Shown one piece after another: positions 2,211 to 28,320 of a DNA stretch of 32,120 nucleotides. The first letter of the stretch is position 1, and the number at the start of each line of letters is the position of its first letter. This DNA comes from Cytophagaceae bacterium (GTDB lineage: Bacteria > Bacteroidota > Bacteroidia > Cytophagales > Spirosomataceae): NCBI GenBank assembly GCA_026785975.1, contig JAJAZB010000284.1, positions 1 to 32,120 of the forward strand, written 5' to 3'. Below the pieces are notes generated by a model. The model was given only the letters and a program-made list of their open reading frames with translations. It did not search any database and was not told where the DNA came from. Both the position numbers and the translations under genes were made by a program.

Positions 2211-4552
2211 TACGCTTTGGTAGCGCGGTTTTCGGTGCGAAAAAAGACGGAGTACGCGTTTTTACGCCCGTACAAATTATACACGGTAAACGTCCAGTGA
2301 CCCTGCCAACGGCGATCTTTCATGCTGGGGCTGTAGATATTCCACGAAAAATCGAGGCGGTGGTAGGCCGGAATGCGTTCCTGGTTGCGTTCGTTGTAGT
2401 ACGGGTAAATCCGGCCCTGATAGCCGATGTAGCCCTCCGGCGCGGTGTAGGGCCGTCCGCTGCTGTAAGCAAACGTGAACGAAAAACTGTGGTGCTTGCC
2501 CTGGTTGATGTTGAGGCTGGCGTTGAACGTATGCGGACGGTCGTAGTTGGCCCGGTACCAGTCGCCGCCGTTGATGCGCTCGCGAAAACTGGCTCCCTGA
2601 TCGACCTGGTTGAAGGTCCGGGCGAAGGTGTAGTTGACCCAGCCGGTGAGTTCGCCTTTCTTTTTGGCCAACATCACTTCCAAACCGTAGGCCTTGCTGC
2701 GGCCCTGCAAAAGTTGCGTTTCGGGGTAGGGTTGGAGCAGGAAATCGGCACCGGGTTTGTAGTCGATTACGTTTTGGGTCGTGCGCCAGTAACCCTCCAG
2801 CGTGAGTTCGTAAATGTTTTCGTTCAAATTCTGGAACCAACCCGCCGAGAGTAACTGGCTGATTTGCGGGCGGATGTGCTCGTCGCTGGTTTTCCAACGG
2901 GCGGTGGGCAGGGGCGTCGTCGTGTTGGTTACTACTTGCAAATACTGCCGCATGAGGTTGTAGCCAAATTTGACCGAGGCGTTGGGACCCACCGAGTAGC
3001 GAATGCCCAGGCGTGGCTCGAAGCCGCCGTAGCGGTGGGTCACCTGTCCGGCGCCATAGCGCACGGAATCGATTACGGATACTTCATCCACGGACTCGCC
3101 CGTGGCGTAACGGCGCACCAAACCCGGCCCGAGGTTCATGAAATACGAATACCGCAACCCCGCCGACACGGCCAGATTGGGCGTGAGACTCATCTCGTCG
3201 TCGGCGTGAATGGCGAGTTCAACGGCGTTTTCATTGGGCGTTTTCTGATAATTCACGCTCGGACTGCTGCCCGGCAGGAGTTCACCCGGATTGAGCCGGT
3301 AGTGCGTGGCGTTGACGCCCACTTCGGTTTTATGGTCTTTCCACTGGTAGTTGAGGTTGGTCTTAAACTGTCGTTGCAACAAGCCTTGCTGTAGCACGAC
3401 TTTGTTGGACGAGTTCAACTCGGGCGATAAAATCTTGGGCACGTAACTGGCCACGATGGCCGTGGTCTGGAGATTGAGGCGGGAGTTGATCGCCAGAAAC
3501 CACCGCGCCATGCCGTTGAGAGTTTTGTGGTCGTACTGCGTCGAGGTGGCGTTGATGTTGGCCAGACTACCCAGCAGCGAAGTCTGGAAAAAGTCTTTGC
3601 TCCAGTACCCCGACACCGTAAACGTGTTGCGGTCGTTGGCCCGCCAAAACAATTTCGCGGCGGCATCGCCAAAGTTGGCCTTGATGTTGTTGAGCCGCTT
3701 GGAGGCCAGTGGCAACAGGAAATCATTGAACGCGCCCCGGCCCGATACCAGCAAAGCCATTTTTCCCTTCACAATGGGAATTTCAGCAGTCAACCGATTG
3801 GAGACCAGACTGATACCTCCGGTCAGTTGAAACTTCTCCAGGCTGGGGTTTTTCAGGGCGATGTCGAGCACCGAGGCCGCCCGACCGCCGTAGCGGGCGG
3901 GTACGTTGCCTTTGTACAAATCCAACCCGCTGACGGCATCGGGCGGGAACGCCGAAAACAACCCGAACATGTGGGTAGGATTGAAGATGGGCATATCGTC
4001 GAGTAGAATCAGATTCTGGTCGGTGGTGCCCCCGCGTATGTTAACCCCGTTGGCGGCCTCGCCCACGCTGCTCACGCCAGGCAGCATTTGCAGCCCCCGC
4101 AAGATGTCGACTTCCCCCATGGCCGAGGGTAGTTTTTGCAAGGTTTTAATGTTAATCTGGCTCACGCCCAACAAGGGTTGCCGGATAGTGCGGTCGAAGC
4201 CCTTGCTGGTCACCACGACTTCCTCCAACTGGCTCGATACCGTACCCAGGCGCACGTCGAGGCGGGCATCGCGCTGGATGTTCATCACCACCCGGAAGGG
4301 TACGTACCCCACGTGCCGCACCACCACAATACGCGGCCCCGACGTGACGGTAATGGCAAAGCGCCCTTCGGCGTCGGTGTAGGTACCCGTCACCGATTTG
4401 TTGTAATCAACGACAATAGCCGCCCGGACGAGGGGTTTACCATCGGTCGAATCACGCACCACGCCGCTAAGCGTGTAGCCGTAGGTCATTTGGGCGGAGG
4501 CACGGTGCCCGAGCAAGGCCAGGGCAGTCAGGAAGAGGAGAAGTCGGTTCAT
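2150..4552 (-). CDS. TonB-dependent receptor with N-terminal carboxypeptidase-like regulatory domain and plug
   Basis: 'GVVRDSTDGKPLVRAAIVVDYNKSVTGTYTDAEGRFAITV', plug 'GEVDILRGLQMLPGVSSVGEAANGVNIRGGTTDQNLILLDDMPIFN', beta-barrel C-terminus. Start placed at MNRLLLFLTALALL (4550-4552), a signal peptide, instead of the longer ORF. Confidence 0.9.
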   Translation of the reverse strand: MNRLLLFLTALALLGHRASAQMTYGYTLSGVVRDSTDGKPLVRAAIVVDYNKSVTGTYTDAEGRFAITVTSGPRIVVVRHVGYVPFRVVMNIQRDARLDVRLGTVSSQLEEVVVTSKGFDRTIRQPLLGVSQINIKTLQKLPSAMGEVDILRGLQMLPGVSSVGEAANGVNIRGGTTDQNLILLDDMPIFNPTHMFGLFSAFPPDAVSGLDLYKGNVPARYGGRAASVLDIALKNPSLEKFQLTGGISLVSNRLTAEIPIVKGKMALLVSGRGAFNDFLLPLASKRLNNIKANFGDAAAKLFWRANDRNTFTVSGYWSKDFFQTSLLGSLANINATSTQYDHKTLNGMARWFLAINSRLNLQTTAIVASYVPKILSPELNSSNKVVLQQGLLQRQFKTNLNYQWKDHKTEVGVNATHYRLNPGELLPGSSPSVNYQKTPNENAVELAIHADDEMSLTPNLAVSAGLRYSYFMNLGPGLVRRYATGESVDEVSVIDSVRYGAGQVTHRYGGFEPRLGIRYSVGPNASVKFGYNLMRQYLQVVTNTTTPLPTARWKTSDEHIRPQISQLLSAGWFQNLNENIYELTLEGYWRTTQNVIDYKPGADFLLQPYPETQLLQGRSKAYGLEVMLAKKKGELTGWVNYTFARTFNQVDQGASFRERINGGDWYRANYDRPHTFNASLNINQGKHHSFSFTFAYSSGRPYTAPEGYIGYQGRIYPYYNERNQERIPAYHRLDFSWNIYSPSMKDRRWQGHWTFTVYNLYGRKNAYSVFFRTENRATKAYQLQIFAAPIPTLSYNFEFK

Positions 4553-25746: not shown

Positions 25747-25861
25747 TATCGTCATGCTGAACTTGTTTCAGTATCTTCCCACTCCCCGGCCTATTGCAGC
25801 TACGGTTAAACGACTCAGTCTGCCAATTGGAAGATGCTGAAACAGGTTCAGCGTGACGATA
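25747..25861. repeat. 33-bp imperfect inverted repeat (25747-25779 / 25829-25861); all three mismatches are G-U pairs in the plus-strand RNA
   Basis: TATCGTCATGCTGAACTTGTTTCAGTATCTTCC versus GGAAGATGCTGAAACAGGTTCAGCGTGACGATA. Confidence 0.9.
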
Positions 25862-25896
25862 CCTTCGGCATGACGATACGCTCAATGATTTTAACG

Positions 25897-27354
25897 ATGA
25901 AAACAGTACTTCTTTTCCTAACGCTCCAACTGACTGCCTCTGGCTTGGCGGCCCAAACCGATACGCTGTACGTGGCCGAAAACGTGCCCCTGCCCACCGG
26001 CCTGACCGCCGAAGTGGGCGGGCTGGACGTACTGCCCGACGGACGGCTCATGGTGGCTTTTCACCGGGGCGAAGTCATGACTTACGACCCGAAAACGGGA
26101 GTTTGGAAAAAATTCGCTGAGGGTTTGCACGACCCGTTGGGCGTCCTGGCGATTTCTAATTCAGAAATTCTGGTCATGCAGCGCCCCGAACTCACCCGCC
26201 TGAGCGACACCAACGGCGATGGGCTGGCGGATGATTACCAGGTGGTTAGCGATCAGTTCGGGATTTCGGGCAACTACCACGAATTCGCTTTTGGCCCCGT
26301 GCGCGACGGTGACGGCAATTTGTACATCGCGCTTAATGCGGGTTCCAACGGCGCGGGCATCCGGCCCGAACTGCGGGGCGAATTCAACGCCCTCGGTCGG
26401 CAAGGGCGGATGTATTCCTGCGTACCGTACCGGGGTTGGGTCATGAAGATTGGAAAAGACGGGAAAACGACGCCCTACGCCCTGGGTTTTCGTTCGCCCA
26501 ACAGCCTGGGTTTCGATGCGCAGGGCCGCCTGCTGGTGTGCGACAATCAGGGCGACTGGCTCGGTACGAGCAAACTGTACCACGTGCAGGAAGGCCGTTT
26601 TTACGGACACCCGGCGAGTTTGGTCTGGAAAGATAATTTTCCCGAAATCGATCCGCTGACTTTACCCGTGGCGAAACTCGATTCACTCCGAACGCCCGAA
26701 TCCATTGCGTTTCCGCACGGCTACGTCGCTAACTCGCCGACGCAACCGGTTTTAGACAAAACCAACGGCAAGTTCGGCCCCTTTGCCAATCAGGTTTTTG
26801 TGGGCGAAATGGACCATCCGTTTTTGTTGCGCCTGTTGCTGGAGGAGGTCGACGGAGCCGTGCAGGGTGCCTGCATTCCATTTCACGTCAAAGGGTTACG
26901 CCGGGGCAACAACCGGCTCGTTTTCGCGCCGGATGGTAGCCTCTGGGGGGGCCAAACTGCCCACGGCTGGGTGGGCAACCAGGGCCTGCAACGCATTGTT
27001 TACCAGGGAGGTGAGGGGATGGAGGTACTGAATATCAGCCTAACCAAAACGGGCTTCGACCTCACTTTCACCCAACCCCTCGACCCAGCCACCGCCCTAA
27101 AACCAGAAATGTATGGGCTGAACCGGTTTTACTACGAATATCATTTAGCCTACGGCTCCAAGAAATTTGACGAACAGCCCGTGGCCGTCACCTCGGCAAA
27201 ACTGTCGCCCGATGGTAAAACCGTTTCGCTCGAACTGGCGGAACTCAAGCCGGGGTATCTCTACGAAATGACGTTGGGGAATCTGACTTCAACCAGCGGA
27301 AAAACTCCGCTTAGTCGGCTGATTTGCTACACGTTGAATCGGGTGAGGAGGTGA
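25897..27354 (+). CDS. Secreted beta-propeller (sorbosone/glucose dehydrogenase-like) protein
   Basis: 'GGLDVLPDGRLMVAFHRGEVMTYDPKTGVWKKFAEGLHDPLGV...GFRSPNSLGFDAQGRLLVCDNQGDW'; start set at MKTVLLFLTLQLTASGLAAQ. Confidence 0.8.
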   Translation: MKTVLLFLTLQLTASGLAAQTDTLYVAENVPLPTGLTAEVGGLDVLPDGRLMVAFHRGEVMTYDPKTGVWKKFAEGLHDPLGVLAISNSEILVMQRPELTRLSDTNGDGLADDYQVVSDQFGISGNYHEFAFGPVRDGDGNLYIALNAGSNGAGIRPELRGEFNALGRQGRMYSCVPYRGWVMKIGKDGKTTPYALGFRSPNSLGFDAQGRLLVCDNQGDWLGTSKLYHVQEGRFYGHPASLVWKDNFPEIDPLTLPVAKLDSLRTPESIAFPHGYVANSPTQPVLDKTNGKFGPFANQVFVGEMDHPFLLRLLLEEVDGAVQGACIPFHVKGLRRGNNRLVFAPDGSLWGGQTAHGWVGNQGLQRIVYQGGEGMEVLNISLTKTGFDLTFTQPLDPATALKPEMYGLNRFYYEYHLAYGSKKFDEQPVAVTSAKLSPDGKTVSLELAELKPGYLYEMTLGNLTSTSGKTPLSRLICYTLNRVRR

Positions 27355-27429
27355 AAGGCACGTACGTACCCATGCCGTATTTGACTTAATTTCTTAGCTT
27401 TAATGCAAGCAGGCGCGTAAATTAGCATA

Positions 27430-27954
27430 GTGAAAAACAAGTCAACCCTCTTAGATTTCGTTATCGACAGACTGACCAATTCCGTCCGGAATACCATTTC
27501 GGGCGACAGCTTTACGACTGAAGTTTTACGCCTTACAAATGCTGACCTCAAAGGAATAACGAAGAAAGCGGGCTGGAACTTTAACTGGAAAGCCGAATTG
27601 GCAGACAACACCAGGGAAGTCTTTAAACTGACGATTACCAACAACCCAAGGATTATTCAAGGATTATTGAGCCTTTCTATTGAGCCTGATCATGTGTACA
27701 TGCACTTGCTGGAAAATGCACCTTTCAATACTGGGCATGGCAAGCTTTATGAAGGTGTGGCAGGAAATTTAGTGGCTCACGCCTGTAAAGTGTCTTTCCA
27801 GCAAGGATTTGATGGCTTTGTTGCTTTCACTGCCAAGACAAAGCTCATTGCTCATTACCAGAAGACTTTGGGTGCTTCTATTTTGAGTGGTCAGCGAATG
27901 ATTATCCCAACAGGCTCCGCGCAAATCCTGGTAAACAAGTACTTTAAATCGTAA
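27430..27954 (+). CDS. Uncharacterised protein, possibly GNAT-fold; first gene of a two-gene module (GTG start)
   Basis: 'FVIDRLTNSVRNTISGDSFTTEVLRLTNADLKGITKKAGWNFNWKAEL...GVAGNLVAHACKVSFQQGFDGFVAFTAKTKLIAHYQKTLGA'; the last segment resembles a GNAT acetyl-CoA-site/C-terminal motif. Confidence 0.7.
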   Translation: MKNKSTLLDFVIDRLTNSVRNTISGDSFTTEVLRLTNADLKGITKKAGWNFNWKAELADNTREVFKLTITNNPRIIQGLLSLSIEPDHVYMHLLENAPFNTGHGKLYEGVAGNLVAHACKVSFQQGFDGFVAFTAKTKLIAHYQKTLGASILSGQRMIIPTGSAQILVNKYFKS

Positions 27955-27959
27955 AGACT

Positions 27960-28133
27960 ATGGCATACATTAAAGAACCCGAAGGCATTGACCTCATCAT
28001 TCAAAGCGAGCCGCTGACAGACCAGGCAAGACGGGAAATAAGCGATTTCATCAAAAATCACAAGGCCAAAAATTCCCAAAGTACACTGCAGAGCGCTACT
28101 AACCTGAAGAGAAAGCAGACTGTCAACGGATAA
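27960..28133 (+). CDS. 57-aa charged protein, translationally close partner of the preceding ORF (absent from the supplied ORF track)
   Basis: MAYIKEPEGIDLIIQSEPLTDQARREISDFIKNHKAKNSQSTLQSATNLKRKQTVNG*; ATG 5 nt after the preceding stop. Confidence 0.7.
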   Translation: MAYIKEPEGIDLIIQSEPLTDQARREISDFIKNHKAKNSQSTLQSATNLKRKQTVNG

Positions 28134-28320
28134 ATTGGATAATTCTGCGCTGGCACGTGGGAACTTAGCTTCAACCAGCGGAAAAACGCCGCTTAGTCGG
28201 CTGATTTGCTACACGTTGAATCGGGTGAGGCGGTGAGAGGCGCGGTTTAGCTATGCGTACTTGTATCAACTTTGAGCTTAATTTTTTTGCTTTAAGCAGA
28301 AGTACAAGAAATAGAGGCAA

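Follow-up and report, generated by a model that had tools for sequence, protein, structure and literature searches.

The window (the whole 32,120-nucleotide stretch of DNA analysed here) carries, at positions 27363-28158, what we regard on balance as a mobile, recombinase-less two-gene module, probably of toxin-antitoxin type, that was inserted just behind the stop codon of a beta-propeller gene, travels with the gene end of a related strain and enters by homologous recombination. The module recurs beside many different genes, with site-specific repeats at about one third of its sites. ParE toxin modules behave in the same way, and at one gene filled sites are interspersed with empty ones on the gene tree. 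Because the 3' end of the host gene stands on both sides of the module, that gene remains intact. The features of the locus are the following:

25897-27354, plus strand: host gene, encoding a secreted beta-propeller protein of ~485 aa (the program-called ORF begins at 25834)
27277-27362, plus strand: upstream copy (H) of the repeat, comprising the last 25 codons of the host gene including the stop, and 8 bp beyond; its core is 27287-27362
27380-27403, plus strand: leader block, similar to 28271-28295
27418-27425, plus strand: promoter-like box TAAATTAG, directly 5' of ORF1
27430-27954, plus strand: ORF1 (174 aa, starting with GTG), predicted GNAT fold, closest among solved structures to TacT3, AtaT, KacT and GmvT
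27960-28133, plus strand: ORF2, 57 aa, conserved partner and candidate antitoxin, one long predicted helix
28159-28244, plus strand: downstream copy (D) of the host gene 3' end
28271-28295, plus strand: leader block, similar to 27380-27403

A mechanical repeat search recovered the direct repeat formed by H and D (86 bp, 91% identity, spacing 882 bp), and local BLASTN matched the core at 72 of 76 positions with E=2e-31. Both searches bear out the claim of an earlier note on this DNA that the last 22 codons of the propeller gene recur at this distance downstream. In the propeller frame both copies translate to STSGKTPLSRLICYTLNRVRR followed by a stop codon, i.e., the same 21 residues. Similarity resumes in the leader, as had also been claimed, in a weaker second block (22 of 25 positions identical between the two leader segments), and the ORF listing agrees with the note that ORF1 and ORF2 are the only substantial ORFs between the copies. 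Over the core and four upstream codons, the copies differ at five codons (AAT/AAC, CTG/TTA, ACT/GCT, ACT/ACG and AGG/CGG), of which four are silent and one is a replacement. The repeated stretch is unique within the window genome, based on a genome search. The assembly is fragmented (523 contigs), yet its two copies are not identical, and the same gene-end arrangement occurs in named isolates (Persicitalea and Algoriphagus chordae) as well as in a genome that forms a single contig (G214).

The product of the host gene has a Pfam DUF7133 match and is PVC-type heme-binding / glucose-sorbosone dehydrogenase-like. The gene and the cupredoxin gene upstream of it are kept together in 12 relatives. 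In all of these but G035 the orthologs, which come from other genera, have a single propeller 3' end and lack the module, and a family-wide search found a second nearby copy of the last 62 residues of the propeller only in the window genome and in G035. The single 3' ends show that the earlier note had the right idea in proposing the arrival of a cassette that restores the gene end, and the mobility of the two genes as a unit of ~0.8 kb (see below) backs it further. No relative was seen to have the host gene twice in full, which the note had named as evidence to the contrary. The alternative offered in the note, a tandem duplication whose interior was replaced, is unsupported and is rejected, as the ORF1-ORF2 operon is a conserved family found elsewhere beside many unrelated genes.

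G035, from another genus, is an independent case at the propeller gene, in which a 134-bp duplication (94% identical) surrounds an unrelated 310-aa ORF. Two duplication cases at this gene among ~70 is striking, but the coincidence was noticed after the fact. The inserted ORF in G035 (2980-3912 of locus L029) is an orphan with relatives only in G167, where there are two close copies (83%) and one distant one; no flanking repeats were found around the two close copies.

Searches of Pfam, NCBIfam, PHROGs, PADLOC and PDB sequences gave no usable name for ORF1 or ORF2, and ORF2 has no Pfam match above the cut-off. ORF1 was modelled with AF2 from 47 sequences (mean pLDDT 86). The top Foldseek match of the model is AtaT (E 5e-6) and the best structural Z is that of TacT3 (Z 13.0, 2.7 A over 140 residues), and KacT and GmvT likewise rank high. 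The predicted GNAT fold is firm on the basis of this model. The assignment as a GNAT toxin is only a lead because GNATs form a large superfamily and the differences in Z among the top rows are small. The acetyl-CoA motif [RQ]xxGx[GA] is absent from the ORF1 of the window and from 44 of the 47 aligned members, and YEGVAGN is found instead. Tyr143 of ORF1 is invariant. ORF2 follows the pattern MGxIKEPKGVDFxIxSxPLTDxERKEISEFI with a K/R-rich tail, and a single helix is predicted from residue 21 to 56. A box resembling that of the window, CGTAAATT, precedes ORF1 at other loci, and it is from this comparison that we call it promoter-like. The size of the genes, the operon structure, the predicted fold and the behaviour of the pair indicate that ORF1-ORF2 is probably of toxin-antitoxin type.

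In their predicted GNAT fold, and in being a two-gene operon with a small partner, ORF1 and ORF2 resemble TacT-TacA, AtaT-AtaR and KacT-KacA, the toxins of which are the top structural matches. Unlike in those systems, the canonical motif is missing, identity of ORF1 to the toxins is only 11-20%, and the partner lies downstream and is predicted to be a single helix rather than a DUF1778/ribbon-helix-helix antitoxin.

Relatives of ORF1 were confirmed at 554 or more places in genome contigs, mainly of Bacteroidota, and the operon with ORF2 is conserved. Within the family of the window genome, 80 of 222 genomes have them. ORF2 is recognisable by sequence behind ORF1 at 91 of 109 loci, and diverged forms of it take that place at several others. 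Records of mobile elements contain the following relatives: one close relative on a viral contig, one in a phage, and those on 17 plasmid records, all with <60% identity and mostly from Bacillota. These records give no sign of a vehicle, and carriage of the module by phages or plasmids was rejected. The plasmid relatives include some with 44% identity on large Paenibacillus plasmids (NC_017543.1 177127-177648 and others). More distant relatives occur in Streptococcus, one of them annotated as a GNAT family N-acetyltransferase. The phage relative (Fusobacterium phage phiPaco, OR492274.1 34919-35428, 32%) is annotated as a minor head protein, which is probably a misannotation.

Flanking direct repeats were detected (cut-off E<=1e-4) at 40 of the 109 module loci and at 12 of 354 control positions shifted by 2-4 kb within the same loci (Fisher p ~3e-18). 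Because a few genomes were entered twice among the 109 (L086=L163, L091=L166, L102=L174, L118=L172 and L122=L165), the independent count is ~37 of 104. Chance is ruled out as a source of the window pair by its E value, and of the class by this excess over the shifted positions. The repeats at these loci are 20 to 310 bp long and are unrelated between loci, except for the duplicate entries and a few related arrays. Over all cases examined they measure 15-370 bp, differ in sequence at nearly every site and have no common core. They are of two kinds. Some are the 3' end of a neighbouring gene that is itself intact and that either precedes the module in the same orientation or follows it convergently; the others are intergenic repeats, dispersed or in arrays. 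At least 10 different host genes are involved, including those for GntP permease, FtsX permease, thiolase, acyl-CoA dehydrogenase, a xylose-isomerase-like TIM barrel, an HI0933-like flavoprotein, M24 peptidase, an ABC ATPase and PIG-L. The distance between repeats is mostly 0.78-0.9 kb, little beyond the operon, and the DNA similarity of modules in different contexts typically stops ~40-110 bp 5' of ORF1 and 110-300 bp 3' of it. Since repeat spacing and similarity limits coincide, what moves is the operon with little added to it.

A survey of the background, covering 1.1 Mb of three genomes and 766 genes of at least 150 aa, found only the known G035 case, and the background of gene-end duplications is therefore low. 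A detectable flanking repeat is missing at 69 of the 109 module loci, so other routes or decay must be common.

Gene-end duplication is not confined to the GNAT module; other hosts, ParE and other cargo show it as well. ParE toxin loci from the same family have flanking repeats in 10 of 29 cases, the GNAT module in 11 of 29, and short ORFs from three genomes, treated alike, in 8 of 180. At the prephenate dehydrogenase gene, 30 genomes of one genus (g5) were compared, and a site was counted as filled if ParE lies within ~0.5 kb after the gene. Eight sites are filled and 22 are empty; the gene end is duplicated at seven of the eight filled sites and at none of the 22 empty ones. At these seven sites, a copy of the final 15-61 bp of the gene, reaching the stop codon or extending a few bases past it, stands 0 to ~33 bp after ParE. 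This downstream copy is succeeded by the sequence that directly adjoins the stop codon in empty relatives, as in the filled G227 and the empty G207 (91% identical over 700 bp). In the gene tree of prephenate dehydrogenase, three filled genomes have strongly supported empty sisters, which implies repeated gain or loss at this site. Each downstream copy in g5 is at least as similar to the gene end of its own genome as to that of any other, which means either recent insertion or recombination between the copies.

How the two copies differ bears on how they arose. At module loci with a gene-end repeat, the copies differ by 70 silent and 33 replacement codons. We estimate that an idle local duplicate would show ~25% silent differences, or ~40% if the active copy also changes silently, and the observed ratio departs from the latter value with p ~1e-8. 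This silent-biased, ortholog-like divergence indicates that local duplication followed by decay is insufficient. It is probable that DNA bearing the module and a related gene end came in by homologous recombination, or that exchange with other strains altered the copies afterwards. For the acyl-CoA dehydrogenase gene end of Algoriphagus chordae (L145), the two copies show 23 silent and 6 replacement codon differences across 327 bp, which is on a par with the divergence of this gene from orthologs of other species (24-30 silent, 3-5 replacement); the downstream copy also has indels and forms the longer, more divergent branch. In a sibling species (G428, locus L222), another type of cargo sits between duplicates of this gene end:

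504-1418 of L222, minus strand: gene for an ORF6N-domain protein, flanked by the duplicated acyl-CoA dehydrogenase gene end (163 bp)

Here the copies differ by 13 silent codons and 1 replacement. Compared with the nearest relative, similarity is 0.933 for the downstream copy, 0.931 for the gene body and 0.902 for the active end. This suggests that the active end may have arrived with the insert and that the downstream copy may be the displaced native end, in what is one case with a handful of sites. At another locus (L178), the closest relatives differ in downstream context and both copies are equally distant from orthologs.

The main rival of the homologous-recombination model is long target duplication with later allelic exchange. 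By this account, which we consider rather unlikely, a staggered break or replicative copying duplicates 15-370 bp of recipient DNA, in Kobayashi's sense, and the copies, identical at birth, diverge by mutation and by allelic exchange of the active end. Two copies identical at insertion could indeed be made different by exchange with other strains, and the downstream copies are closer to the gene end of their own host than to those of other species. The silent bias, over all gene-end repeats as in L145 and G428, is unlike that of an idle local copy, and the later exchange is an extra assumption. The variable length, site-specific sequence, intact neighbours and lack of a recombinase all match the restriction-modification case as it is described in PMC3031569. 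There, insertion of restriction-modification genes with long, variable target duplication is attributed to inference from genome comparisons (Nobusato et al., 2000, pmid 11163967); the work is cited in two reviews of toxin-antitoxin and restriction-modification systems. The published case, as described there, and the present one both involve a module of selfish type with no recombinase, long and variable duplications of host DNA, and empty sites in relatives. The present case differs from the published one in involving a module of toxin-antitoxin type, Bacteroidota and gene 3' ends, and in the ortholog-like differences between copies, which point to imported ends and recombination between copies. 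The empty site is exact for ParE at prephenate dehydrogenase; for the propeller gene it is a single gene end in orthologs of other genera.

In the homologous-recombination model that we prefer, the module DNA would bring along, as a passenger, the host-gene end of a related strain. A small circle, formed by recombination between the two repeats, may be the carrier, and its DNA would enter the host gene end by a single crossover through ordinary homologous recombination. Run backwards, this step would remove the module and leave the gene exactly as it had been. How the module first comes to a new gene would lie outside the step and would still need an illegitimate or long-target-duplication event. 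We infer this mechanism as a whole, and it would account for host genes that stay intact, silent codon states of foreign origin, the part played by dispersed repeats at other loci, empty sites that are exact, and the absence of a recombinase.

Integrative elements that enter the ends of genes or tRNAs restore the 3' end of their target. The module resembles them in that the host gene end is intact and a second copy marks the far side, and a site-specific tyrosine recombinase acting in trans, with the element bringing a substitute 3' end, would explain why gene 3' ends are targeted, how a foreign end restores the gene, and the near-identical block close to the terminus in some pairs of copies. 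We consider this highly improbable. The element is tiny (~0.8 kb), holding only ORF1 and ORF2 and no integrase; one module uses many unrelated target genes; and the repeats are long and variable, with nothing in common that could be a core.

Chromosomal integron gene cassettes with attC-like repeats share with the module the small gene units and, at some module loci, a repeat between single small genes in arrays (L114, L142 and L169). As an explanation of the insertion they are barely credible: in the window and at other loci the repeat is the coding end of a gene, copying local host sequence rather than an attC site and differing from site to site, and the window repeat shows no more folding than shuffled sequences do (z -1.2 to 0.1). 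The attC reading was rejected for the gene-end cases, which neither the sequence of the repeats nor their folding fits, arrays such as L114 aside. In L114 (a Mucilaginibacter arboris contig of 8477 bp), single small ORFs form a gene-cassette-like array with a ~190 bp repeat between them (13 BLAST matches), and no integrase was noticed in the 8477-bp stretch. The arrays in L142 and L169 are similar and smaller.

Toxin-antitoxin modules are known to move from genome to genome, in most cases with no mobility genes to be seen. With less than even confidence, we extend the model to propose that such modules in Bacteroidota may be a class of minimal mobile units that borrow homology, taking the 3' end of the current host gene as passenger, recombining into the same gene of other strains and leaving without a scar, with no dedicated recombinase. 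A full-text literature search, with incomplete coverage that leaves novelty unproven, returned nothing that describes duplicated gene ends flanking toxin-antitoxin modules in Bacteroidota. Gene-end duplications at about one third of sites, in two unrelated module families and with filled and empty sisters, are a signature that can be searched for in any set of genomes, and the silent-site pattern can tell import by recombination from plain target duplication.

Upstream of the propeller gene (25747-25878), the window also holds an intergenic repeat of dispersed type, which has inverted arms (TATCGTCATGCTGAA ... TTCGGCATGACGATA). About eight other places in the genome have sequences like it, and several of these match in both orientations.
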